13,696 nt of DNA from Acholeplasmatales bacterium (GTDB lineage: Bacteria > Bacillota_I > Bacilli_A > Acholeplasmatales > Anaeroplasmataceae): assembly GCA_024690445.1 (NCBI GenBank), contig JAILPD010000065.1:1-13696 (forward strand). The letters are read 5' to 3'. The notes below the pieces were generated by a model. It ran no database searches. It had not been told where the DNA came from and saw nothing but the letters and a program-made list of their open reading frames with translations. The position numbers were made by a program, and so were the translations under genes. Positions 1 to 11,833 of the stretch are shown here, one piece after another (position 1 is the stretch's first letter; each line of letters begins with the position of its first letter).

Positions 1-1172
1 TTTGATTGAACGAAAATCATAGTTGTTGGAATAACATATGCACAGAATTGTGCATCATGACCAGCACCTGAATGAATATACTGATGAGATACACCAGTTT
101 CTTCTGCAGCTGCTTTAACATATGATACTAATTTCTTATCCCAGTAAACTGTATCACGATTCCATGCCTTCACCACTTCACACTTACAACCGTTCCATGT
201 CTTATCAGCACAGCTCTTAACAATAGCTAATACCTGCTCAAGTACTTCTGGCTTTTCATGTCTTGAATCAAATGAGAATTCAAAGAAATCAGGCACACAT
301 GTATGAACACATGGGTGACATACAACTTCACCAGTAGTATATACAAGTTCAGGAACACCTAATTTTTCAACTAGCTTATCAATTTCTGTATGTAAATATA
401 CTAGTGCTTCACTTGCTGCAAAGAAAGCATCCTTACGCTTTGGCATAGGGAATGTACCAGCATGTGTAGTTTGACCATAAAACTTTAATCTGTAATTGAA
501 CATACCTAATACACAGTCAACAACACCGATTTCTTTATTATTATCTTCAAGAATTGGTCCTTGCTCAATATGTGTTTCAAACATATATTGATATCTATCA
601 GGAGATAAACGGAACTTCTTATCACCCTTAAACCCTGACTTTTCAAGTGCCATACCAAATGTTTGAGATGGATCAAGAATTGACTTTGAATTCATCATAT
701 CCTCATATTTGAATTTTTGTCTTATATCCTCTGGTAAATAGTCATAGCATACAATACCAGAGCACATCATTGCAGGCGGATATAATGAGCCCTCCTCATT
801 TGTCCATATCATAGCTGTTAACGGATGCTTATGAGGAATATTTTCAGCAACAACTGTCTCTAATACCTCCATTGCAGACATAACACCTAAAATACCATCA
901 TAGTTACCACCATTTTTTACTGAATCACAATGAGAACCCATAACTATTCTCTTTGCTGTAGGATCTGAACCCTCTATTGTTGCATAAAGATTGGCAACGT
1001 CATCACATTCAATCTTTGCACCAATTGCAGTCATTCTTTTAATAAATTCATTTCTAGCCATAATAGCCTCAGGTGATAATGAATATCTAGTGATTCCTCC
1101 ATGTCCGGCATCACCAAACTTAGAGAAAGTTTTAATTTTATCTGACATTCTTTCTAAACTACACTTATACAT
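1..1172 (-). CDS. pydC: M20-family N-carbamoyl-amino-acid amidohydrolase, probable beta-ureidopropionase (3' end cut by window edge)
   Basis: Zn-dependent amidohydrolase of the M20 carbamoylase/allantoate amidohydrolase family. From context it would hydrolyse N-carbamoyl-beta-alanine to beta-alanine, CO2 and ammonia in the cytosol. I translated 390 codons by hand. The motifs come in family order: GSHCDS (79-84, His81), NYDGILGV (90-97, Asp92), TNEEGSLYPPAMMCSG (124-139, Glu127), HIEQGP (201-206, His201), THAGTFPM (236-243) and SGAGHDAQ (368-375, His372), giving the expected set of metal ligands. Family members run to roughly 405-415 residues, so only some 15-25 residues are missing beyond position 1. 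The start is the ATG at 1172: GGAGG (1183-1187) lies 10 bases upstream, inside the last codons of the preceding gene, which ends 5 bp away. Family and fold are secure. The choice among beta-ureidopropionase, L-carbamoylase and allantoate amidohydrolase rests on the neighbouring dihydropyrimidinase and dehydrogenase. Confidence 0.88.
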   Translation of the reverse strand, partial: MYKCSLERMSDKIKTFSKFGDAGHGGITRYSLSPEAIMARNEFIKRMTAIGAKIECDDVANLYATIEGSDPTAKRIVMGSHCDSVKNGGNYDGILGVMSAMEVLETVVAENIPHKHPLTAMIWTNEEGSLYPPAMMCSGIVCYDYLPEDIRQKFKYEDMMNSKSILDPSQTFGMALEKSGFKGDKKFRLSPDRYQYMFETHIEQGPILEDNNKEIGVVDCVLGMFNYRLKFYGQTTHAGTFPMPKRKDAFFAASEALVYLHTEIDKLVEKLGVPELVYTTGEVVCHPCVHTCVPDFFEFSFDSRHEKPEVLEQVLAIVKSCADKTWNGCKCEVVKAWNRDTVYWDKKLVSYVKAAAEETGVSHQYIHSGAGHDAQFCAYVIPTTMIFVQS

Positions 1173-1603: not shown

Positions 1604-2710
1604 TCACGCTCCTAAAAATACATCTTCAAGTATCTTAATTAAGTCATCATTTTCAGGTACAATTAAACTATTTTGTAAGTTTTTTGCTGCCAATGCTTTG
1701 CCTACAAATATAACAATTTCTTCTTTTGTTATCTTTTCTTTTTCTCCAAATAAAGAATCTAGTTTATCTTTAAATTCACTTACACTATTCATATTCATAA
1801 ACGATAATACTTCGTTAACCTTATCAGGAATATAACCATATAAGAATTCTAAATATCTTCCAAGAAGCAATCCATTTGCCCTACCATGATCTATGTCTTT
1901 GAAATATGTTAACGAATACCCCATTGAATGAACTGCAGTTGTTCCTGTATGGGATATTACAATACCTGCTAATGTTGATGCAAATAGTAAATTATCTCTA
2001 TCCACTAATAATAAATCATTTTCTTCAATTTTCTTAAATAAAGATGAAATAATTCTTATTGCTTTTTCTGAATATATTGCAGTCATTTCATTAGCTTTTT
2101 TATTTAAAAAGCCTTCTATTGCATGACTCAATGCATCAATTGCAGTATTTATTGTTGTATTTTTTCCTAGGCTACACATATACTTTCCGTCAAGGAATGC
2201 ATAATCTGGAAACATAATTGGTGATGATAATGTTGTCTTTGTTTCTAATTCATCATTAGTAAGAATTGAGTACTGAGTAACCTCACTACCTGTTCCAGCA
2301 GTTGTTGGAATAAATACCATTGGCAATATTTCATCTGTATACTTTCCAGAAAATAAGCTTTCTCTAGAAATATCCTGTGCTGCAAGTAACGCTATTGCCT
2401 TTGCTGCATCCATTGGTGAACCACCGCCAATAGCAACAACAAAATCATCTCCATGTTCCTTGGCGAACTTTGCTCCGTCGTAAACAATATCAATAGTTGG
2501 ATTAGACATAATATTGTTAAAAATATCATAACCAACTCCAGCTAGCTTTAACGCTGATAACACATCAGCAAGAGATCCATTTGATTCAGCTGAATGTTTA
2601 CCAGTTACAATTATTGCTTTCTTTCCAAGAGAACTAAATATTTTATAATTACTTATAATTACATCTCTGCCACTAATAATTTTAGTAGGCATATTGAAAG
2701 CAAATTTCAT
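1604..2710 (-). CDS. Iron-type (group III) alcohol dehydrogenase, probable malonic semialdehyde reductase
   Basis: 368 residues, normal for group III alcohol dehydrogenases. The nucleotide-binding motif GGGSPMDAAK is at 95-104, TTAGTGSEVT at 136-145, and the metal ligands are Asp192 and His196 (IDALSHAIEG), His261 and His275 (DHGRANG). The additional His found in some members after the third ligand (HxMxH) is Tyr265 here, as in other members, so it is not a defect. It stands 14 bp after a beta-alanine-type aminotransferase in a pyrimidine catabolism operon. The likely reaction is NAD(P)H-dependent reduction of malonic semialdehyde to 3-hydroxypropionate (methylmalonate semialdehyde to 3-hydroxyisobutyrate from thymine), the role called PydE in the extended pathway. 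I do not recall for certain that characterised PydE belongs to this ADH family, so I give no symbol. Expected to be cytosolic; this step also re-oxidises cofactor. Confidence 0.85.
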   Translation of the reverse strand: MKFAFNMPTKIISGRDVIISNYKIFSSLGKKAIIVTGKHSAESNGSLADVLSALKLAGVGYDIFNNIMSNPTIDIVYDGAKFAKEHGDDFVVAIGGGSPMDAAKAIALLAAQDISRESLFSGKYTDEILPMVFIPTTAGTGSEVTQYSILTNDELETKTTLSSPIMFPDYAFLDGKYMCSLGKNTTINTAIDALSHAIEGFLNKKANEMTAIYSEKAIRIISSLFKKIEENDLLLVDRDNLLFASTLAGIVISHTGTTAVHSMGYSLTYFKDIDHGRANGLLLGRYLEFLYGYIPDKVNEVLSFMNMNSVSEFKDKLDSLFGEKEKITKEEIVIFVGKALAAKNLQNSLIVPENDDLIKILEDVFLGA

Positions 2711-2724
2711 ATTACACCATCCCT

Positions 2725-4050
2725 TTAAATTAATTTATCTACCTCAGATAAAACCTCATCTAACTTAACTAATTCTGCTAATAATTGTTCTTCAGTAATA
2801 ATTAATGGTGGGTTAACAAATAACATATTTTCATGTGAATAAGTCATAAAACCCTTCTTCTTTAACATTCCAACAATTTTACCCATTGTACCTTCTGGAT
2901 CCTTACCGAAAGGAACTAATGGTTCACCTGTTTTCTTATCCTTAACTAGCTCTAATGAAGAGAATAAACCAATATATCTTACTTCACCAACCGAAGGATG
3001 CTTACTAGAAAATTCTTCAAGCTTTTCACCTAAAACTTTACCGACCTTATTAACATTATCTAGAATCTTTGCATCATCATAATACTTAACACATGCAACA
3101 CCAGCAGCACATGCAAGAGGATGTCCTGAATAAGTAAGACCACACAATAAAGTATGATCATTGAAATATTCAGCTATTTTTTTAGATACTACTACACCAC
3201 CAAGCTGTACGTAACCACATGTTACACCCTTAGCGAATGATACAATATCTGGCTTAACACCGAAATTTTCAAATGCGAATAGTTTACCTGTTCTTCCCCA
3301 GCCAGCCATTACCTCATCACAAATCATCATAATGCCGAATTCATCACAAATTTTTCTAACTCCTGGCAAATATCCCTTTGGTGGAATAATTACACCATTA
3401 GAGCCTGTGATAGTTTCTAAAACAATAGCTGCAACCTGATCTGCACCTTCATAAATAATTTGTTCACGAAGCTTTGATAAATAATAAGCTGTAGCTTGCT
3501 CTTCAGATTCAAATTTAATAACTGGTTCACGATAAATATATGGGTCAAAGAACTTTACGAATCCAGGGATACCTGGTTCAATTGATGCTCTTCTTGGTTC
3601 ACCAGTTAATGAACCAGCTCCAAATGTAGAACCATGATATGATCTATATCTAGAAAATACCTTTGGTCTACCAGTAACAATACGAGCCATCTTAATAGCA
3701 TTTTCGTTAGCATCAGCACCACCATTAGTGAAGAACACCTTTCCCATATTATCAGGCATTCTATCAATGATCATCTTAGCTAACACTGCACGAGCCTCAA
3801 CACCATATGATGGCCCTAAATAAGCATATTTATCAAGCTGCTCAACGATAGCAGCATTAATTTCTTTATTAGCAAAACCAACATTTAAATTAACTAATTG
3901 TGACGACATATCAGTATATCTGTTTCCATCATAATCCCACATATAAATCCCTTCTGCCTTTTCAATAGCAATTGGATTTAAATTTCCTTGCTTACTCCAT
4001 GACTGTAATACATATTTCTTTTGTAATTCTCTAATCTCTTCACCATTCAT
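2725..4050 (-). CDS. pydD: Class III PLP aminotransferase, probable beta-alanine:2-oxoglutarate (taurine-type) aminotransferase
   Basis: Fold-type I, class III aminotransferase (441 residues from this start). Visible motifs: FTNGGADANENA (107-118), YRSYHGST (135-142) for PLP phosphate and ring contacts, CDEVMAGWGRTG (244-255) with Asp245 for the pyridine nitrogen, and Lys274 in SFAKGVTCGY as the Schiff-base lysine. The opening (WSKQGNLNPI, MSSQLVNLNVGF) resembles taurine/beta-alanine aminotransferases more than GABA or ornithine enzymes. Proposed reaction: beta-alanine plus 2-oxoglutarate (or pyruvate) gives malonic semialdehyde plus glutamate (or alanine), releasing the second pyrimidine nitrogen. 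An in-frame ATG at 4065 would add MEIII, but GGAG at 4060-4063 lies 9 bases before the ATG at 4050, so I chose 4050; it begins 5 bp past the pucR stop. The choice of amino acceptor is not visible in the sequence. Confidence 0.87.
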   Translation of the reverse strand: MNGEEIRELQKKYVLQSWSKQGNLNPIAIEKAEGIYMWDYDGNRYTDMSSQLVNLNVGFANKEINAAIVEQLDKYAYLGPSYGVEARAVLAKMIIDRMPDNMGKVFFTNGGADANENAIKMARIVTGRPKVFSRYRSYHGSTFGAGSLTGEPRRASIEPGIPGFVKFFDPYIYREPVIKFESEEQATAYYLSKLREQIIYEGADQVAAIVLETITGSNGVIIPPKGYLPGVRKICDEFGIMMICDEVMAGWGRTGKLFAFENFGVKPDIVSFAKGVTCGYVQLGGVVVSKKIAEYFNDHTLLCGLTYSGHPLACAAGVACVKYYDDAKILDNVNKVGKVLGEKLEEFSSKHPSVGEVRYIGLFSSLELVKDKKTGEPLVPFGKDPEGTMGKIVGMLKKKGFMTYSHENMLFVNPPLIITEEQLLAELVKLDEVLSEVDKLI

Positions 4051-4055
4051 AATTA

Positions 4056-5213
4056 TTATCTCCATTTTTTATCTATTATTTTCATTAGTTTGAATGATAT
4101 TACTAGTTCTGCAATATCCTCGTAAGTAAGATTCAAGCCAAAATTATCCTTCAAAAACTTAATTCTATTGTTAATAGTATTTCTGTGAACACCATACATT
4201 TCAGCAAGCTTATTTACGCTACCGTTTGTTGCAATGTAATCCTCTAAAACCTTTAGATAATCTGTAGAGTTTTCAATGTCATAGTCGGCTATTTTCCCTA
4301 GAACATAATTTACATAATTAATTCTTACATTATTATCAGATACCTTAAATAGTAGCTGATAAATACCACATTCGCTGTATTTAGTTATTACGTTATCCAA
4401 TATTTGTGATGTTTTAAGTGCATCATTTGATTGTGAATACAATAGTGGTAATTGATCTAATCCATTTTTAGAATTAGACACTCCAATATGATATTTAATT
4501 TTGTATTCATCAAGAATACTCATTATCTTTTCAACTAAATCATTGTAATATTTCTTCTCATTATCAATTGAAATAACAATTAAATTATCTGCCTCTGAAA
4601 ATACTGATACTTCACTTCGTTTAAAGCTTGATTCAATAGACTCAATTATTCCGATAATTGAAGTAACTGTATCAGATTTATCAACTTTAATATTTAATAT
4701 TCTAAATCTATCAGTAGAATTTATTCCTACTCTTTCGATTGTTGAATAATTAACACTTTCTTCTCCCAAGGAGAATATAATATTTGAAAAAGCCTTTGAT
4801 ACACTAAGCAATATTTTTTCATTTTCGATTAATATATGAGAAAGCTCATATGTAACATCTGTTAATCTCTTTTCCCATGGAATTGTAAATAGAGGTAATC
4901 CTTTTCTGTTACAAAGATCAATGACATCTTGTGGAACCTTAGTAATATATGGGCCAAGGTTCAACACCCATCCACTACATTTTCTACTTAAAAGAGTTTC
5001 AGCAAATCTTGTTAACGAAAATGTTGGCTTTGACGAAATACCAATACCGGTAGTAAATATCAATTCAGTACCATGTAGAAATGATGGAACATCATCATCT
5101 TCTACTACATGAATCCATCTACATGGTCTATTAAGGCCAAGAGTTCCTGCAATAATTTTAATATCGTATTTATGATTTGAATACGATAGCAATTCTCTAA
5201 GTGTTAATGCCAT
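4056..5213 (-). CDS. PucR-family transcriptional regulator
   Basis: Full-length PucR/CdaR-type regulator, 385 residues. The N-terminal PucR ligand-sensing domain covers about 1-125 (LRELLSY, WIHVVEDDDVPSFLHGTELIFTTGIG, PLFTIPWE). A degenerate GGDEF-like middle domain follows at about 165-290. The C-terminal helix-turn-helix of the HTH_30 type is at about 332-360 (SVNKLAEMYGVHRNTINNRI). Members govern purine, pyrimidine, proline or amino-acid catabolism, most often as activators responding to a pathway metabolite. The gene lies inside the operon, 2 bp after the dehydrogenase stop and 5 bp before the aminotransferase, so its own level should rise with the pathway. Its likely target is the promoter at 11865-11893, where I see a phased direct repeat; ligand and sites are inference. 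The ATG at 5213 has only a modest ribosome site (AGGTAG). Confidence 0.9.
   Translation of the reverse strand: MALTLRELLSYSNHKYDIKIIAGTLGLNRPCRWIHVVEDDDVPSFLHGTELIFTTGIGISSKPTFSLTRFAETLLSRKCSGWVLNLGPYITKVPQDVIDLCNRKGLPLFTIPWEKRLTDVTYELSHILIENEKILLSVSKAFSNIIFSLGEESVNYSTIERVGINSTDRFRILNIKVDKSDTVTSIIGIIESIESSFKRSEVSVFSEADNLIVISIDNEKKYYNDLVEKIMSILDEYKIKYHIGVSNSKNGLDQLPLLYSQSNDALKTSQILDNVITKYSECGIYQLLFKVSDNNVRINYVNYVLGKIADYDIENSTDYLKVLEDYIATNGSVNKLAEMYGVHRNTINNRIKFLKDNFGLNLTYEDIAELVISFKLMKIIDKKWR
4060..4063 (-). promoter_or_regulatory. Ribosome binding site deciding the aminotransferase start
   Basis: GGAG, formed from the last codons of the PucR-type gene, stands 9 bases before the ATG at 4050. 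It lies inside the longer reading that would start at 4065, so it argues for the shorter start and for translational coupling to the regulator gene. Confidence 0.6.
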
Positions 5214-5215
5214 AT

Positions 5216-6700
5216 TTATCTACCTACTTTCTTTATTCTCTTTGATTTATTTATGGCATCTACTGGACATACAAGTCTACATAAATGACAACCTACACAA
5301 TTCTTTCCAATAATTTTAGGTCCATCATCGCTAAAATCGATTGCTTGATGTCCACCATCATAGCACGATAGATAGCATCTACCACACTTGATACACTTTT
5401 CCTTATCAATAACTGGGAATTCAACAGTACTTCTATCTAAATGATCTGCAGAAACAATTTGATCTAAAGCTTTTCCTACAACCTCACTAATAGACTTATA
5501 CCCCATCTTTTTTAGATAAATTTTGGCACCAGATATCATATCCTCAATTATTCTATAACCATATTGCATAACAGCTGTTGTCACCTGGATGTTTTCACAT
5601 CCTAATGCCATAAACTCTAATGCATCCTGCCAGGTCTCGATTCCACCAATACCTGAAATAGGATAATTCTTTAATGTTTCATTCTTCTTCATATCAGTAA
5701 TAAATCTTAGTGCAATTGGTTTAACCGCTTTTCCTGAATAACCTGATATAGAAGTTTTACCAGCAACTGTTGGATAAGATTCAAATGAATATAAATCTAC
5801 TCCAGTTATGGATTTAATAGTATTAATAGCTGCTATACCATCAGCTCCAGAGCTGATAGATGCTAAAGCTGGAAGTTCCATATTACCAATATTTGGTGTC
5901 ATCTTTGCTAAAACTGGAATACTACATCCAGCCTTTGTAGCCTTAACATATCTTGATACCAAGTCAATATCTTGTCCTACATCAGAACCCATACCATTCT
6001 TTGCCATTTGTGGACAAGAGAAATTACATTCAATAATATCTACTCCTACTTCCTCTGATAACTTTGCTAAAGAAGTCCACTCTTCTTCATTTTCACCCAT
6101 AATAGAAGCCACAATGATTCTATCTGGATAATTTTCCTTTAATCTTTTTAAAATACTTAAATTTTCTTCTAAAGAATGAGTAGATGTTTGTTCAAGATTT
6201 TTAAAGCCAACAAATGGATTATCCTCTTTTTCTAATGTAGAAAATCTAGGAGAAACTTCATCTGGAATATAATATCCAAATGTTTTAAATACAATTCCAC
6301 CCCAACCCATATCTAATGCTTTTGCACACATCTCATAAGTTGAAGCAACTACAGACGATGATAGGAAAAATGGATTAATACAATGAATACCTGCAAAATC
6401 AATTCCTAAATCTACATCAGATGTATCAATTTTTTTAGCATCAAGTGATGTAATAATATCCTTAATTCTAATTTTGCCATCATAATGGATACATGCATTT
6501 TCGCAAGGTGCATTGCATGTAGCGCATATTTGGGCATCGGCCATATCATATGCACCATCTTTATTCTCAAATCTTATAGATCTAATGAATCTAGCAGGAT
6601 CAAATCCATTAGGACAAGCCTTTGTACATGCAGCATTATGACAAAGCATGCACTTAAAAGTTTCAGTTTTAATAATCTTATCCTTGTATTTGTTTTCCAT
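5216..6700 (-). CDS. preA: Dihydropyrimidine dehydrogenase, PreA-type, with N-terminal DPD/PreT-like Fe-S domain
   Basis: Reduces uracil/thymine to the 5,6-dihydro base, the first step of the pathway. There are 494 residues from this start. Residues 1 to about 85 form a Cys-rich domain like domain I of mammalian DPD and the front of PreT/GltD: Cys17, 20, 25, 29, then Cys59, 62, 66, 70. Residues about 95-425 are the FMN-binding dihydroorotate-dehydrogenase-like barrel, closely PreA-like (CNFSCPQ, MGSDVGQ, LAKMTPNIG, GIAAINT, SGYSGKAVKPIALRFI, SGIGGIETW). The C-terminus carries two [4Fe-4S] motifs, Cys436/439/442/446 and Cys468/471/474/478. The FAD and NAD(P)H domains that sit between domains I and IV of DPD are absent and no PreT is in view. 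The position of the catalytic Cys of mammalian DPD (xACGQ) is Val241; as I recall, E. coli PreA reads the same. The ATG at 6700 is chosen because GGGG (6710-6713) lies 9 bases upstream; ATGs at 6715 and 6709 would add 5 or 3 residues. Confidence 0.9.
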   Translation of the reverse strand: MENKYKDKIIKTETFKCMLCHNAACTKACPNGFDPARFIRSIRFENKDGAYDMADAQICATCNAPCENACIHYDGKIRIKDIITSLDAKKIDTSDVDLGIDFAGIHCINPFFLSSSVVASTYEMCAKALDMGWGGIVFKTFGYYIPDEVSPRFSTLEKEDNPFVGFKNLEQTSTHSLEENLSILKRLKENYPDRIIVASIMGENEEEWTSLAKLSEEVGVDIIECNFSCPQMAKNGMGSDVGQDIDLVSRYVKATKAGCSIPVLAKMTPNIGNMELPALASISSGADGIAAINTIKSITGVDLYSFESYPTVAGKTSISGYSGKAVKPIALRFITDMKKNETLKNYPISGIGGIETWQDALEFMALGCENIQVTTAVMQYGYRIIEDMISGAKIYLKKMGYKSISEVVGKALDQIVSADHLDRSTVEFPVIDKEKCIKCGRCYLSCYDGGHQAIDFSDDGPKIIGKNCVGCHLCRLVCPVDAINKSKRIKKVGR

Positions 6701-6709
6701 ATCTATCAT

Positions 6710-6713
6710 CCCC
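6710..6713 (-). promoter_or_regulatory. Ribosome binding site deciding the dehydrogenase start
   Basis: GGGG followed by nine bases and then ATG at 6700. The upstream in-frame ATG at 6715 is preceded only by an A-rich stretch lacking a clear Shine-Dalgarno, so the shorter start is preferred. The evidence is moderate, because GGGG is a weaker match than GGAGG. Confidence 0.45.
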
Positions 6714-6722
6714 ATTTATTTC

Positions 6723-8078
6723 TTATTTTAAAGAACGTTTAACCATCTTTCCCCAGCCTCTTTCACCTTTAAATTCGCCATTTTCATATACTAAACGGCC
6801 TCTAGAAAAAGTCATAACTGGATATCCCTTAAGCTTCTTGCCTTCCCAAATTGTATGATCACAATCTGAGTGCATCTTTTCATTTGTAATCGTAAAATCT
6901 AATTTAGGATCATATATTACGATATCAGCATCATAACCTGGCTTTAAGAAACCTTTTTTCTTACAACCAGAAAGCTTTGCTGGATTTTCGCTACAAAGCT
7001 TTACAACAGTTTCAATTGTTGTCTTTCCCTTATTAGCTTCACTAAGCATATAAGGATACATATTTTCAACACCAGCACAACCATTAGGAATCTTTGTAAA
7101 ATCATCCTTACCCCAATCCTTTTCAGTCTTTTGGAAAGGACAATGATCAGTTGCCACTGTATCTACAACACCCATGTTGATTGCTCTCCATAAGGCATCC
7201 TTAGATTCCTTACCCTTCATTGGAGGAGAGCACACAAAGTCACGTGCATCATTTCTTTTATAAACATCACTTGTAAATTCAAGATATTGAGGACAGGTTT
7301 CTGCATACACCTCAACACCTTCCTTTTTTGCACGCTCAATTGCTTCAATTCCACCCTTAGATCCGACATGAACGATATATAAAGGAGCACCTAGTGCCTT
7401 AGCAAAATTAATTGCTCTAATATCTGCCTCCTCTTCAACCCATTCAGGTCTAGACATATAATGGTACCAAGCTGATGTCTTTCCTTCTTCTAAAAATCTC
7501 TTAGTTAATACAGCAATTGCATCTCTATTTTCAGCATGAACAGATACTCTTGCACCAATCTTTTTAGAATGCTCAAGTAACCTAAATAAATCACCATCTT
7601 GTACACCAAAGTCATAAACCATAAATGCTTTAAATGTTGGAACACCAAATTTTACTGCATCGTCCATAGTAGTTAATAAACCATTTGATAAATCCTTAAT
7701 ACCAACATGGAATGCATAATCACATGCTGCATCAGGAGCGCAAATTGCATCTCTACGCTTAACTGTATCTAGAATTGATTCATTAAAATCTTGTAAAGCA
7801 AAATCGAATACCGTTGTAGTACCACCACATACTGCAGCTCTTGTTCCAGCAAAATAATCATCTGCAGAAACAGTACCACCAAATGGCATAGCTAAATGTG
7901 TATGTAAATCAATAGCTCCAGGTAATACAAGCTTTCCAGTTGCATCAACAACCTTAGTAGCTTTATCCGGAATTAGGTTCTTACCAATCTCACTAATGAC
8001 TCCATTTACAACTGAAATATCAGCCTTATATTTCCCCGATGAAGATACTAAAGTACCGTTCTTAATTAATAAATCCAT
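6723..8078 (-). CDS. hydA: Dihydropyrimidinase / D-hydantoinase
   Basis: Cyclic amidohydrolase that opens dihydrouracil or dihydrothymine to the N-carbamoyl-beta-amino acid. 451 residues, typical for the family. The binuclear metal site is complete at near-canonical positions: His59 and His61 (DLHTHLAMPFGG), carbamylated Lys150 (TFKAFMVYDFG), His181 (SVHAEN), His237 (YIVHVGS) and Asp311 (ATDHCPF). NGCAGVENMYP and the closing beta-sandwich (GYDADIVIYDP) follow. Tyr155, two residues before the glycine of the FMVYDFG stretch, fits the conserved substrate-loop tyrosine. An ATG at 8084 is only two bases from the strong AAGGAGGG (8086-8093), while the ATG at 8078 has an 8-base spacing, so I start there. 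The gene sits 64-70 bp after the binding-protein gene, beyond a hairpin, and 22 bp (7 bp from the longer start) before the dehydrogenase, matching consecutive pathway steps. Confidence 0.95.
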   Translation of the reverse strand: MDLLIKNGTLVSSSGKYKADISVVNGVISEIGKNLIPDKATKVVDATGKLVLPGAIDLHTHLAMPFGGTVSADDYFAGTRAAVCGGTTTVFDFALQDFNESILDTVKRRDAICAPDAACDYAFHVGIKDLSNGLLTTMDDAVKFGVPTFKAFMVYDFGVQDGDLFRLLEHSKKIGARVSVHAENRDAIAVLTKRFLEEGKTSAWYHYMSRPEWVEEEADIRAINFAKALGAPLYIVHVGSKGGIEAIERAKKEGVEVYAETCPQYLEFTSDVYKRNDARDFVCSPPMKGKESKDALWRAINMGVVDTVATDHCPFQKTEKDWGKDDFTKIPNGCAGVENMYPYMLSEANKGKTTIETVVKLCSENPAKLSGCKKKGFLKPGYDADIVIYDPKLDFTITNEKMHSDCDHTIWEGKKLKGYPVMTFSRGRLVYENGEFKGERGWGKMVKRSLK

Positions 8079-8085
8079 ATTCATT

Positions 8086-8093
8086 CCCTCCTT
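8086..8093 (-). promoter_or_regulatory. Strong ribosome binding site deciding the dihydropyrimidinase start
   Basis: AAGGAGGG is the best Shine-Dalgarno in the window. It leaves 8 bases to the ATG at 8078 but only one or two to the ATG at 8084. With the hairpin just upstream in the transcript, it suggests that this enzyme is translated independently of the transporter genes. Confidence 0.7.
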
Positions 8094-8103
8094 ATTAATA
8101 TTT

Positions 8104-8132
8104 CTAAGGGCTAGGATTTTCCTAACCCTTAG
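8104..8132 (-). other. Intercistronic hairpin between binding-protein gene and hydA
   Basis: Arms 8104-8115 (CTAAGGGCTAGG) and 8121-8132 (CCTAACCCTTAG) enclose a 5-base loop. Read on the minus strand, all 12 positions pair, with one G-U. Read on the plus strand, the same position is a C-A mismatch, so selection seems to act on the minus-strand RNA. No U-tract follows (AAATATTAATAAGG), so a classical intrinsic terminator is unlikely. A more likely role is protection of the 3' end of the upstream transporter mRNA after processing, or partial attenuation, giving more transporter or binding protein than enzymes. Confidence 0.7.
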
Positions 8133-8148
8133 AAGTAACTATTAAATC

Positions 8149-9234
8149 TTACTTATACTTATAAACTAATACTAATCCAGATCTTTGGTAAACTTGTGCA
8201 ATTTGTAATAATGATGAACCAGCAGCATTAGCAGCAATTAAGTTAGAAACCCAAGTAACACCAAAATCAACTGAACCATTTGAAACTGCTGTTGTTTCAG
8301 ATAAGTCACCACCACCTGAAACGATATTTACATTTGTAAAGCCAGCTTCAGTATAGTAACCCTTAGCTTTAGCTACATAGTAGCCCATAAACTGTGCTTG
8401 AGGTAACCACTTTAATTGAATGCTTACGCTTGTCTTTTCTAATGCACCATATGTCTTTGACTTTGCCATTTCTACATAAGTAGAATCACGGAAGCTATCT
8501 AATGTCATTTCACTAAGCTTTGTTTGTGCGGCAGTATCATCTAATGTAATATACTTCTTTGCTTGTGTTAATGTTGTAGTTAATGCAGTATCATATAAAG
8601 TACCATCTACAGCAACTGTGTTACCAGATGTATCCTTTGTTACAAGTTTTGCAACTTCAGATGCCATATACTTTTGATGATCCTGTGATACTGAAGAACC
8701 AGCTTCGTAAACAATTTGTGCTGCTTCCTCTGTATGCTCACATGCATAAGCCCAGCCCTTCATTGATGCTTCAATAAATGCTGCAGTTGTATTAGGATTT
8801 GCTTCAGCGAATGCTTTTGTTGTAAAGATATTATCTTCAAGCATTGCAACACCCTCATCATTCATATCAATTACACCAACACTATCTCCGTATCCTAATC
8901 CACCTGTATATGAATTCTTAACTAAACCTAGTTCGTTGTAAGTCATTGCTGATGCTAATGAGATAGTTCCATCATCAAATGAATCCATTGTAAAATCCTG
9001 TGAAACATACTTCTTTTCTTGACCATACTTTTGTAATAAAGCTAAAATTTCATACTCATTACCTAAACCCCAGTTACCAACAGCATTGCTTGCTGCAGCT
9101 TCCTTTACAATAGTTTCTGATGAAGTACCCTTATCCCAAGCGATACCTTTTGCATTTGAGCATGATACAGCAAATACTGTAGCTCCTGCTGCAACACAAA
9201 TTGCAGCTAACTTAATAAATCCTTTTCTTTTCAT
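8149..9234 (-). CDS. ABC transporter substrate-binding lipoprotein, NMT1/THI5-like, apparently circularly permuted
   Basis: Extracellular binding lipoprotein for the importer encoded upstream; the likely ligand is a pyrimidine base or related ring. Residues 1-24 are a signal peptide (KRKGFIK, hydrophobic core) ending in AVSC, so Cys25 is the predicted lipidated residue. The order of conserved blocks is abnormal. NMT1/THI5-like proteins begin, after the signal, with a block such as VSIQLKWLPQAQFMGYYVAK, then an ADFGVTW block, then QVYQRSGLVLV, and only then VGNWGLGNEYEILALLQKYG and SAMTYNELGLV. Here VGNWGLGNEYE is at 52-62 and SAMTYNELGLV at 95-105, while VSIQLKWLPQAQF starts at 270, VDFGVTWVSNL is at 332-342 and the protein stops soon after QRSGLVLVYKYK. 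All parts appear present (361 residues) but rotated, with the break at the first inter-lobe strand. AAGGAGA precedes the ATG at 9234. An assembly artefact is possible, but a matching signal peptide and stop codon argue against it. Confidence 0.9.
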   Translation of the reverse strand: MKRKGFIKLAAICVAAGATVFAVSCSNAKGIAWDKGTSSETIVKEAAASNAVGNWGLGNEYEILALLQKYGQEKKYVSQDFTMDSFDDGTISLASAMTYNELGLVKNSYTGGLGYGDSVGVIDMNDEGVAMLEDNIFTTKAFAEANPNTTAAFIEASMKGWAYACEHTEEAAQIVYEAGSSVSQDHQKYMASEVAKLVTKDTSGNTVAVDGTLYDTALTTTLTQAKKYITLDDTAAQTKLSEMTLDSFRDSTYVEMAKSKTYGALEKTSVSIQLKWLPQAQFMGYYVAKAKGYYTEAGFTNVNIVSGGGDLSETTAVSNGSVDFGVTWVSNLIAANAAGSSLLQIAQVYQRSGLVLVYKYK

Positions 9235-9272
9235 TTTTTCTCTTCTCCTTAAAATTATTTTTTTATATTAAA

Positions 9273-10085
9273 TTAAGACTTTCTATGTCTTAATGTAATA
9301 CCAGAAATTAGCATTAGTAGCATGTATAATAAAATACCCATAATGCAAGCTACAAATATATAAGACCAAGCAGTTGAGAACTGCATTAGATTGATATTTG
9401 CCTTAATTTGATAACCAACTCCTACTGTTGATTCAGTAAAATATTCAGATACAACACTTGTAATAACAGCTGTAGGAATGCCGATTTTAAGTGCTGTAAA
9501 CACATATGAAATACTATTTGGTATTCTTAATTTAAATAGTATTGTTCTCTTGTTACATGCATATGATAACAAGAGGTCTTTTGAAAATGGCTTTAATTCT
9601 GTTAAACCTCTATAAGCTGTAATCGACATACTAGACATCGAAACAACTGTGATAACTAAAATCTTTGCCAACATACTTCTAAAATCAGAAGATCCTCCAC
9701 CAATTTTAGTTAAATTCATAAACACAGGTGTTAATGCAATAATAGGGACTGCATTAAATGCTGTTACTAGACTAATTCCACCTTTTCCAGCTACAGGGAA
9801 TAGAGCTGCTATTATTGCTAGAGAATATCCCAATAACGATCCAATTAATAACCCAATCAATACTGATGATAAGGTTGACCAAATGTCATCAGCCATTTTC
9901 CCTAGATTATCGTTCATTACTCCGATAATATGAAATGGTTGTGGCAATATTTGTGAATCTACGGAAAATACCTTATTTATTACTTGTGTTTGCCATAAAA
10001 TTACTAATATAGAAAATGCAATTAGTGGATATAATACCGATGATATAATTCTCCACCTATGTTTCATTAATTTGAGTAGTTTCAT
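9273..10085 (-). CDS. ABC transporter permease (second of two)
   Basis: BPD_transp_1-type inner-membrane permease of the nitrate/taurine/thiamine-precursor importer class, 270 residues. There are about six hydrophobic segments: one near the N-terminus (VLYPLIAFSILVILWQ), then a core block from about residue 70 with SSVLIGLLIGSLLGYSLAII, a segment ending in NAVPIIALTPVFM, and others. The coupling (EAA-like) loop for the ATPase is around AYRGLTELKPFSKDLLLSYACN with the following IPNSISYVFTALKIG. Its 5' end overlaps the upstream permease gene by 29 bp, implying translational coupling. Possible starts cluster at 10091 (TTG), 10088 and 10085 (ATG). GGTGA six bases before 10085 favours that one, with low certainty. 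It differs clearly from the other permease, so the channel is predicted to be a heterodimer. Confidence 0.88.
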   Translation of the reverse strand: MKLLKLMKHRWRIISSVLYPLIAFSILVILWQTQVINKVFSVDSQILPQPFHIIGVMNDNLGKMADDIWSTLSSVLIGLLIGSLLGYSLAIIAALFPVAGKGGISLVTAFNAVPIIALTPVFMNLTKIGGGSSDFRSMLAKILVITVVSMSSMSITAYRGLTELKPFSKDLLLSYACNKRTILFKLRIPNSISYVFTALKIGIPTAVITSVVSEYFTESTVGVGYQIKANINLMQFSTAWSYIFVACIMGILLYMLLMLISGITLRHRKS

Positions 10086-11004
10086 CATCAATCACCACAC
10101 ATTCCTTTTGTTTCTTAAATAATCTAATGAATTTTAAGAATAGTTTTCTAATCTTCTGACTACCCTTATACTTATAAGGACATACAATTCTTTCGATTAG
10201 TCCCATCAAGCCGCCAGAACCAATTCCAATAAATGCACTTAAGAACACAATTTGCCAAAATATGTACCTACTCATACCACCCTTTAAAGATTGGCTAAGT
10301 AAGCATCCTAGTGATTCTCCACCTTGTAACGTGTCTACTAGGATAGCAGCTGTAATTGCCAATGGTGCAGCTATCTTTAATCCTGTAAATAGATAAGGCA
10401 TCGCTGACGGAATCATAGTTTTTCGATAAATAGTAAATTTATTAGCTGCACATATTTTCATCAAATCTCTTTTTTCACTCTCAACCGCCTTAAATCCAGC
10501 AAGAACATTTGTTGAGATTGGATAAAATGTTAAGATTGCTGCAATTGTTATTCTTGTTACATCTACATTGTTAGTCATTGCAAATATAATGGGTGCAAGA
10601 CCAAGAATAGGAATCATTTGAATTAGCATTAGAAATGGAAATGCTACCTTTTCTACCGCACCAATCAAGTCCATTAATAATGCTAGAACATATCCCAATA
10701 CAATACCTATTGCAAATCCTAATAAAGCTCTTGAAATAGTAATACCTGCAGATTGTAATACAATTCCAAATCCCCAATCAGAACCATTCTTTACAGTAAA
10801 TATTGAAATAATTACATCATATATATGAGGTAAATAATTTTCAGGAGTTCTAAATGAGAATTGTACATAAAATGCTATGATTTCCCATACAATTGCGAAA
10901 CCAATTAGCCAAACACATAAGCTAAAGTTTCTTCTCTTTTTTAGCTTTCCTATAAAAACTTTTACCTTTGATTCTGTTTTTATCTTGTTGATAGATCTTT
11001 CCAT
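10057..11004 (-). CDS. ABC transporter permease (first of two)
   Basis: BPD_transp_1-type inner-membrane permease, 315 residues. An N-terminal membrane segment (CVWLIGFAIVWEIIAFYV) is followed by the conserved core with ISRALLGFAIGIVLGYVLAL, IQMIPILGLAPIIFAM and the cytoplasmic EAA-like loop DLMKICAANKFTIYRKTMIPSAMPYLFTG (in pieces), then further helices. It carries a basic, Lys/Arg-rich tail of about 45 residues after the last helix that the second permease lacks; the end of this tail overlaps the next gene. A GTG at 11013 lies too close to AAGGAG (11015-11020). The ATG at 11004 has a 10-base spacing and is chosen; it lies 5 bp after the ATPase stop. It pairs with the second permease and the upstream ATPase to form the membrane part of the importer. 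Confidence 0.88.
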   Translation of the reverse strand: MERSINKIKTESKVKVFIGKLKKRRNFSLCVWLIGFAIVWEIIAFYVQFSFRTPENYLPHIYDVIISIFTVKNGSDWGFGIVLQSAGITISRALLGFAIGIVLGYVLALLMDLIGAVEKVAFPFLMLIQMIPILGLAPIIFAMTNNVDVTRITIAAILTFYPISTNVLAGFKAVESEKRDLMKICAANKFTIYRKTMIPSAMPYLFTGLKIAAPLAITAAILVDTLQGGESLGCLLSQSLKGGMSRYIFWQIVFLSAFIGIGSGGLMGLIERIVCPYKYKGSQKIRKLFLKFIRLFKKQKECVVIDDETTQINET

Positions 11005-11009
11005 CAGAA

Positions 11010-11804
11010 TCACACTCCTTCAAAGCTACCTCTTACCTTCGCAACTAATTCAGTAAATTCTTGAGTATTCTTCATATCCATTGTTCTAGGTCTAGGAAGA
11101 TTTACATCTATTACTGCACTCAATCTACCAGGATGTGGTGATAATACACAAATTCTATTTGATAGAAATACTGCTTCCTGTATATTATGAGTAACAAATA
11201 TTACAGTTTTATTTGTTTTTCTCCAAATATTTAATAAATCAATATGAAGTTTTTCCTTTGTAAATTCGTCCAATGCAGAAAATGGCTCATCCATCAATAG
11301 AATTTCAGGCTTAACTGCAAATGCTCTAGCAATACCAACTCTTTGCTGCATACCACCTGATAACTCATGTGGATAATGATCTGCAAATTTTGATAAGCCT
11401 ACAAGATCAAGCATTGTCTTTGAAGTTTCCATTCTATCAATCTTACTTACCTTCATAATTTCAAGTGGAAGCTCTATATTTTTTCTTATTGTTCTCCATT
11501 CATAAAGAACTGGCGCTTGGAAAACCATTGCATATTTCCTAGCAAGTCTCGCTTCCTTAGGTGTCATTCCTTCAATTAGAACTTCACCATCTGTATTATC
11601 TAATAGGTTAGCTATAATTCTTAATAATGTAGATTTACCACATCCAGAAGGTCCTAAAAGAGAGATGAATTCTCCTTTATGGATATCTAAAGTAACATCT
11701 GTTAGTGCCTTAGTTACATTAACACCATCTGAATATGTCATACCAACATGATTTAATTTAATTTCAATATCATTAGTAGAAATTACTTCTCTTTCCTTTT
11801 CCAT
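11010..11804 (-). CDS. ABC transporter ATP-binding protein (nitrate/taurine/pyrimidine-precursor class)
   Basis: First gene of the operon, the cytosolic ATPase that powers the importer; 264 residues from this start. All motifs are intact: Walker A GPSGCGKS (51-58), Q-loop Gln96 (VFQAP), signature LSGGMQQ (148-154), Walker B ILLMDEP (168-174) with the D-loop SALD following, and switch His206 (THNIQEA). The sequence style (EFISLLGPSGCGKST, APVLYEWRT, CVLSPHPGRL) is that of the SsuB/TauB/ThiZ group, which matches the NMT1/THI5-like binding protein. TTG at 11819 and ATGs at 11810 and 11804 are in frame. GGGGTGG (11811-11817) with a 6-base gap favours 11804. The 5' leader from the predicted transcription start is about 54 bases. 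Substrate identity cannot be read from this subunit. Confidence 0.93.
   Translation of the reverse strand: MEKEREVISTNDIEIKLNHVGMTYSDGVNVTKALTDVTLDIHKGEFISLLGPSGCGKSTLLRIIANLLDNTDGEVLIEGMTPKEARLARKYAMVFQAPVLYEWRTIRKNIELPLEIMKVSKIDRMETSKTMLDLVGLSKFADHYPHELSGGMQQRVGIARAFAVKPEILLMDEPFSALDEFTKEKLHIDLLNIWRKTNKTVIFVTHNIQEAVFLSNRICVLSPHPGRLSAVIDVNLPRPRTMDMKNTQEFTELVAKVRGSFEGV
11015..11020 (-). promoter_or_regulatory. Ribosome binding site deciding the first permease start
   Basis: AAGGAG, inside the final codons of the ATPase gene, is 10 bases before the ATG at 11004 and effectively touches the alternative GTG at 11013. This favours the ATG. Confidence 0.6.
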
Positions 11805-11810
11805 ATTCAT

Positions 11811-11817
11811 CCACCCC
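11811..11817 (-). promoter_or_regulatory. Ribosome binding site deciding the ATPase start
   Basis: GGGGTGG lies 6 bases before the ATG at 11804. A start at the upstream TTG (11819) would place the site inside the coding sequence with no comparable site before it. Confidence 0.55.
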
Positions 11818-11833
11818 AAAACACTACATTTTC

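Follow-up and report, generated by a model that had tools for sequence, protein, structure and literature searches.

Whether the chain of a substrate-binding protein has been circularly permuted in nature is the question raised by a 361-codon gene on contig JAILPD010000065.1 of an Acholeplasmatales bacterium (assembly GCA_024690445.1). An earlier sequence-only reading of this contig (13,696 nt, analysed as a whole and called the window here) had proposed that the conserved blocks of an NMT1/THI5-like binding protein of the ATP-binding cassette (ABC) importers occur in this gene in rotated order. Our analysis confirmed the observation: the uninterrupted frame, with its signal peptide, its lipobox at Cys25 and its ribosome-binding site, lies on the minus strand with the start codon ATG at 9234-9232, and the plus-strand frame of the same interval is full of stops. 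The motifs VGNWG and VSIQLKW start at residues 52 and 270, as had been reported. The evidence presented below supports the interpretation as well, and the best explanation is that the gene very probably encodes a naturally circularly permuted NMT1/THI5-like (type II) substrate-binding lipoprotein.

The window protein passes the gathering cut-off of PF09084 (86.3 bits; cut-off 20.5) in two stretches, without a single collinear match along the profile. The best stretch pairs residues 280-358 with profile positions 2-79, and TIGR01728 places the other block, residues 133-180, at profile positions 185-232. With the single sequence as query, structure 4nmy_A was matched in swapped pieces, residues 269-338 corresponding to chain positions 7-74 and residues 50-193 to chain positions 111-257; the swapped two-piece match to 4nmy was also obtained with a 63-row profile. 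As controls, two ordinary-order relatives gave one PF09084 stretch over profile positions 2-216, and two permuted relatives gave two stretches. A collinear alignment with ordinary NMT1/THI5 proteins was not observed. ThiY, the thiamin-binding protein and Thi5 (3ix1, 4nmy, 4h6d, 4esx) differ from the window protein in that their blocks are swapped relative to it, and their expected substrate is another one. In what follows, the N block is the old N-terminal block, now last in the chain, and the C block comprises the old middle and C-terminal parts, now first.

To locate the junction, alignments to the ordinary Clostridial protein of locus L110 were made for each circular rotation of the mature window protein. 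The six top rotations begin at model residues 255-264 (model residue n is protein residue n+1), with a top score of 531 against a median of 229, 120 for the unrotated protein, and a mean of -57 and a best of -5 for 100 shuffles. The peak against three other ordinary homologues was located at 257-265, and a rotation of the predicted secondary structure, sampled at every third rotation, peaked at 265 (429.5, compared with a median of 268 and 251 unrotated). This sharp optimum rules out a chance likeness of the blocks and agrees with the proposal that the old termini were joined near residues 260-270. The ordinary L110 protein ends with ...SKYWEQAAAK, and its mature strand begins with ...APDKITLQLKW. 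Residues 26-51 had been taken for a new linker; this holds for residues 26-38 but not for about 39-48, where a helix is predicted (model H38-47) and where the ordinary relatives have the sequence 'GIxxPADLKG'.

The AlphaFold model of the window protein is confident (mean predicted local distance difference test score, pLDDT, 88.0; predicted template modelling score, pTM, 0.87) and has a predicted two-lobed fold, and the order of its elements appears to be the rotated order of the ordinary model. PqqT 9b1v and 7an6 match the ordinary model end to end and the permuted model only over about residues 30-260, i.e., the C block. ThiY and Thi5 were not among the best 50 fold matches of the permuted model obtained with sequential aligners, which we do not count as a difference in fold because the permutation would itself cause such an absence. 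Both the model and the alignment with ordinary relatives place the cut at the first hinge crossing, as had been suggested. Under the mechanism that we propose, a one-gene permutation in or near the Clostridia would have opened the chain where it first passes between the lobes, and the old C-terminal helix would have been joined to the old N-terminal strand via about ten residues; the new N-terminus carries a signal peptide with a lipobox. Each lobe would have become contiguous, lobe 2 ahead of lobe 1, with one covalent crossing between them and with the other hinge strand as the free C-terminal end, and the lipid tether, formerly on lobe 1, would presumably now sit on the hinge side of lobe 2.

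A rotated order on one contig might also be produced by misassembly, or by two tandem binding-protein genes collapsed into one, and the nearest named relative of the window is a metagenome-assembled genome (MAG). Nevertheless, the same order was found in all of the best-ranked homologues and loci examined. In a protein search with 7,990 scored proteins, 3,814 of them at E ≤ 1e-10, block order was tested in the best 120, and the order was rotated in every one. A scan of species genomes gave 219 places encoding a relative, the best 80 of which were kept as named loci; these come from several phyla and are likewise all rotated. Since both lists were ranked by likeness to the permuted query, they attest to numerous independent copies but give no measure of the frequency of the form among relatives. 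Represented among the loci are isolates (e.g., Ruminococcus bromii, Anaerosporobacter faecicola, Agathobacter ruminis, Sporobacter termitidis and Defluviitalea phaphyphila) as well as MAGs of Treponema and other Spirochaetes, and one locus lies on the complete chromosome of the isolate Anaerocolumna sp. AGMB13025 (NZ_CP121445.1). These independent genomes refute both an assembly error and a collapsed tandem pair, to which we assign a negligible probability. The finding is broader than first stated, as it concerns a family with one apparent permutation event and not a lone odd gene.

Across the family, the permuted chain ends directly after the hinge strand in a near-uniform manner, which is a further point against an artefact. 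Among 205 distinct permuted proteins, 192 carry the strict end motif, 190 of which stop at most 7 residues after it and the other two after 12 and 116 residues; of the rest, 10 do not show this strict motif and 3 were skipped. In 193 of 202 of these proteins, a lipobox pattern stands before the VGNW motif (the 3 others were skipped for lack of the latter), and the distance from the cysteine to VGNW is 26-96 residues (median 45). Synonymous differences fell within the set range of 0.03-0.65 per site in 14 of 153 compared gene pairs. The ratio of nonsynonymous to synonymous substitutions (dN/dS) was 0.022-0.18 in these 14 pairs, and likewise in the 8 pairs with dS < 0.5, which come mostly from a few near relatives and hence are not independent; at the level of the coding sequence, these ratios demonstrate purifying selection on the permuted gene.

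We observed two unusual permuted homologues. In P0009 (430 amino acids), part of the C block is tandemly repeated, either as a genuine duplication or as a metagenome artefact. In P0027 (434 amino acids), the permuted binding protein is preceded in the same frame by the first part of an ABC ATPase, and no lipobox was found before VGNW; this fusion is probably a deletion or an assembly join. With regard to a putative origin by tandem duplication and loss, an intermediate with the block order N-C-N-C was not seen among the open reading frames of at least 200 amino acids of the loci examined and 240 listed proteins, and in the same scan a block was doubled above 25 bits only in P0009, through the partial C-block repeat just described. 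Direct repeats of at least 20 bases in positions 8000-9300 form one family of three weak 32-base copies, which is no scar of duplication.

Relatives with the ordinary order, i.e., the N block before the C block, exist alongside the permuted ones. A protein search from L110 found the ordinary order in all 120 of the best listed proteins (P0121-P0240), among them relatives from Desulfosporosinus, Syntrophobotulus, Fusibacter and Anoxybacterium. These ordinary Clostridial PF09084 proteins resemble the permuted ones by homology along both blocks, by the lipobox cysteine, which is near-invariant (90% or more of 38 rows), and by their ABC partners; they differ in chain order and, in L110, by a single PF09084 stretch. 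In the class of Anaerosporobacter (391 genomes), the permuted form was found in at least seven genomes, in one of them split over contig ends, and a strong ordinary form (270 bits or more) in at least four, with both forms in genome G786. In the order to which G718 belongs (58 genomes), the strong ordinary form is present in two (G825 and, once more, G718) and the permuted form in one. The 148 genomes of the class of Treponema include six with the permuted form (one at a contig end, with the C block alone), two with an ordinary form of about 247 bits and five with weaker ordinary forms. Additionally, open frames of 601-811 amino acids in Spirochaete and Clostridial genomes (L158, L160 and L125) start with ordinary-order NMT1-like blocks and are possibly sensor fusions.

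In a 62-row tree (23 permuted and 39 ordinary rows), the permuted rows form one clade with a support of 100 in the Shimodaira-Hasegawa-like approximate likelihood ratio test (SH-aLRT), and this clade is united with 19 Clostridial ordinary rows at 98. When six long-branched rows were removed, the support was 100/99 for the permuted clade and 89/94 for its union with the Clostridial ordinary rows; the Clostridial ordinary group itself had 87/72, and sister and nested positions of the permuted clade were not separated. The stem of the permuted clade is long (0.92). This length would also fit a chimera, in which a C-terminal block fused from a different NMT1-like gene merely resembles a permutation, and a like origin has been weighed for the permuted part of TpMglB-2, according to the available part of its description (PMC4990184). 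Nevertheless, the permuted clade was recovered by the N block alone (99/97) and by the C block alone (100/100), and each block alone joins it to the identical 19 Clostridial ordinary rows, with 97/92 for the N block (89 columns, bootstrap not settled) and 97/91 for the C block. The window protein is also 51% identical to the L110 protein in the N block and 41% in the C block. Because both blocks side with the same 19 rows, both come from one stock and one permutation suffices. On the block trees we reject an origin from two parents and consider a chimera very improbable; in the trees sampled, the protein results from genuine circular permutation of a single gene, and nothing points to a second origin.

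Two copies of the operon that carries the permuted gene are present in a rumen MAG of the Acholeplasmatales (L003 and L004 of G001; C58 and C47). Among 392 genomes of its phylum, at least 14 have a match: G001 has two full-length permuted copies, which were found in none of the other 391 genomes searched, and the other 13 matches are all weak, seven with both blocks in the ordinary order and six with one block only. In this set, as in the 391 genomes above, at most five candidates per genome were scored and the counts are lower bounds. This distribution suggests that the Acholeplasmatales copies were gained from Clostridia, with contamination of the bin as a possibility. At E ≤ 1e-60, the MatE protein of the window matched nothing in 13 genomes near G001, a result without bearing on the host.

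For other families, permuted binding proteins have already been published. In the available part of its text, the CPSARST study reports circular-permutation relations among the glycine betaine-binding proteins 2b4l, 1r9l and 1sw1 (PMC2395249). OpuAC of Bacillus subtilis (2b4l, 2b4m), which is permuted relative to ProX, is the best sequential match of our permuted model (residues 40-360). It belongs to another family with another ligand, and since the likeness is one of fold at 11% identity, a separate permutation is likely. TpMglB-2 (Tp0684) is described, in the available part of PMC4990184, as a natural circularly permuted, lipid-tethered glucose-binding protein of an ABC importer, for which the class 'Type Ic / Cluster Bc' was proposed. 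In contrast to the window protein, where the covalent crossings would have gone from two to one, it has a Type I fold, binds glucose and was cut elsewhere, adding a fourth crossing. In the parts available, 'permut' and 'swap' are absent from the text on OpuA of L. lactis (PMC2861598), and 'permut' is used only of an engineered sensor in that on the ergothioneine importer EgtU (PMC9732360). No permuted NMT1/THI5 protein was found among the open-access literature matches listed, a scope outside which most subscription papers lie.

The authors of the TpMglB-2 study, in the same available part, considered that the topology possibly arose as an adaptation to membrane anchoring (PMC4990184). A permutation that served anchoring alone would not hold here, because the ordinary Clostridial relatives are lipoproteins as well, and anchoring does not separate the two forms. 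A broader adaptive proposal is that the change from two covalent hinge crossings to one, together with the move of the anchor from lobe 1 to lobe 2, altered opening, closing or permease docking and aided the spread of the protein through gut Clostridia and Spirochaetes and into the Acholeplasmatales lineage; we regard it as doubtful. We lean slightly toward a functionally neutral permutation, a frozen accident without effect on binding or hinge motion, which is compatible with the rearrangement. ABC partners and the lipobox accompany both forms, and the ATPase tree does not clearly separate the partners of the two, which lie on two sides of a branch with just 44/88. Against neutrality stand the long stem and the wide spread of the permuted clade, although neither proves adaptation. 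The permease trees did not settle the transporter history either. Based on 25 rows, as for the ATPase, the permease 1 tree requires two changes; its smallest starred set holding the window (96/98) contains two permuted and two ordinary partners, subject to the warning that L143 and one further row attach to the remainder by a long branch. The permease 2 tree needs three changes, with few forks resolved. In both, some rows were less than half filled because the best-scoring domain alone was used.

The features of the gene and of its operon are listed in the table. On the minus strand, the permeases and the ATPase lie upstream of the permuted gene, and the genes from the dihydropyrimidinase to the amidohydrolase lie downstream.

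Table. Features of the window. Counts give the best 80 named loci with a homologue of the neighbouring gene (tblastn, E ≤ 1e-10); gene order and strand vary among loci, many of which are cut by contig ends.
Feature	Position	Strand	Evidence
Permuted NMT1/THI5-like substrate-binding lipoprotein, very probably (361 aa)	8149..9234	-	Open reading frame; PF09084 in two stretches; 4nmy_A blocks swapped
Ribosome-binding site AAGGAG, 10 bases before ATG	9245..9250	-	Direct sequence reading
Signal peptide and lipobox, residues 1-25, ending AVSC, Cys25	9160..9234	-	Sequence
Linker, residues 26-38, family-variable length	9121..9159	-	Alignment
C block, residues 39-258, now first in the chain (lobe 2, second crossing, last part of lobe 1)	8461..9120	-	Collinear with C block of ordinary homologues; model elements H38-47 to H251-258
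Joint of old C-terminus and old N-terminus, about residues 259-268	8431..8460	-	L110 ends and best rotations
Old N-terminal block, residues 269-361, ending on hinge strand GLVLVYKYK	8152..8430	-	PF09084 profile 2-79; model strand E353-359 as last element
ABC permease 2	9273..10091	-	PF00528; 80/80
ABC permease 1	10057..11013	-	PF00528; 79/80
ABC ATPase	11010..11819	-	PF00005; 75/80
Dihydropyrimidinase/hydantoinase	6723..8084	-	TIGR02033, 475.8 bits (cut-off 393.25); 76/80
PreA-like dihydropyrimidine dehydrogenase with N-terminal Fer4_20	5216..6715	-	NF006183, 566 bits (cut-off 335); PF14691 at 5-84; 72/80
PucR-type regulator	4056..5213	-	PF07905, PF13556; 62/80
Class III aminotransferase	2725..4065	-	PF00202; 63/80
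Iron-containing alcohol dehydrogenase family protein	1604..2710	-	PF00465; 62/80
Open reading frame of 139 aa	1178-1597	-	No Pfam match; 15/80
Hydantoinase/carbamoylase-type amidohydrolase, cut by window end	3..1172	-	TIGR01879, 285.2 bits (cut-off 204); 61/80

The signal peptide with lipobox and the adjoining ATPase and two permeases identify the protein as the binding subunit of an ABC importer, and its operon makes it likely that this lipid-anchored subunit serves a pyrimidine-type compound. The lipoprotein would capture uracil, thymine, a dihydropyrimidine or a hydantoin in its cleft and hand it to the permease pair for reductive breakdown by a PreA/dihydropyrimidinase/carbamoylase pathway, in which the class III aminotransferase probably serves a beta-amino acid step. 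A permuted protein with a different substrate, such as a thiamin precursor or another amide or ureide, is compatible with the rearrangement, and we give it a substantial but smaller share of the probability. The nearest solved relatives bind thiamin or formyl-aminopyrimidine, or make hydroxymethylpyrimidine (HMP), and the dihydropyrimidinase models overlap those of allantoinase and dihydroorotase. A pyrimidine-type substrate is favoured by the presence of dihydropyrimidinase in 76 and of PreA in 72 of the 80 named loci. Among the four loci without a dihydropyrimidinase, three (L010, L064 and L075) end less than 250 bases from the gene, and L077 shows about 3.4 kb without one.

Ordinary relatives on plasmids also bear on the substrate. 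A protein search of plasmid records gave 36 with a match, and the seven examined all have the N block before the C block. Dihydropyrimidinase (hydA) lies near the ordinary gene in five of them, from Sinorhizobium meliloti, Deinococcus taeanensis, a Klebsiella plasmid, Qingshengfaniella and Thalassospira, which belong to other phyla, and preA is also present in those of Deinococcus, Klebsiella and Qingshengfaniella. The Azospirillum and Tistrella plasmid stretches have neither gene. Within the Clostridia, such a neighbourhood was seen in one genome, and the L110 locus resembles the permuted loci in having PreA and dihydropyrimidinase genes. When four strong Clostridial ordinary loci were viewed with their flanks, one (L140) had both, in opposite orientation and at a distance of about 3.5 kb from the start of the transporter genes and about 6 kb from the binding protein, the interval to the transporter genes containing two M20-type amidohydrolase genes; L141, L143 and L144 had neither. 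In L141 (G786), a gene with a 2-thiouracil desulfurase domain (PF04463; L141:10530-11027) comes after the ordinary-order paralogue.

The natural permutation, standing beside close unpermuted relatives, some in matching loci, provides a natural control set (205 distinct permuted and 120 close ordinary sequences) with which to ask how a Venus-flytrap protein is affected by the number of its covalent hinge crossings and by the place where the membrane tether is attached. Judged by its operon, the importer of the permuted protein is a probable route of pyrimidine uptake in gut bacteria; enzymes of the pyrimidine pathway act on 5-fluorouracil in Anaerostipes hadrus, as stated in the available part of PMC11036815. 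A half-length Pfam match, such as that of the window protein, can conceal a rearrangement of this kind.

As minor observations, no Rfam match was present in the window at the gathering level, and no PreT-like protein was found among the 12 window open reading frames searched against Pfam. The PreA-like protein carries at its N-terminus Fer4_20, the domain II of dihydropyrimidine dehydrogenase, and the plasmid preA loci, unlike the window, list an adjoining NAD(P)-dependent oxidoreductase.
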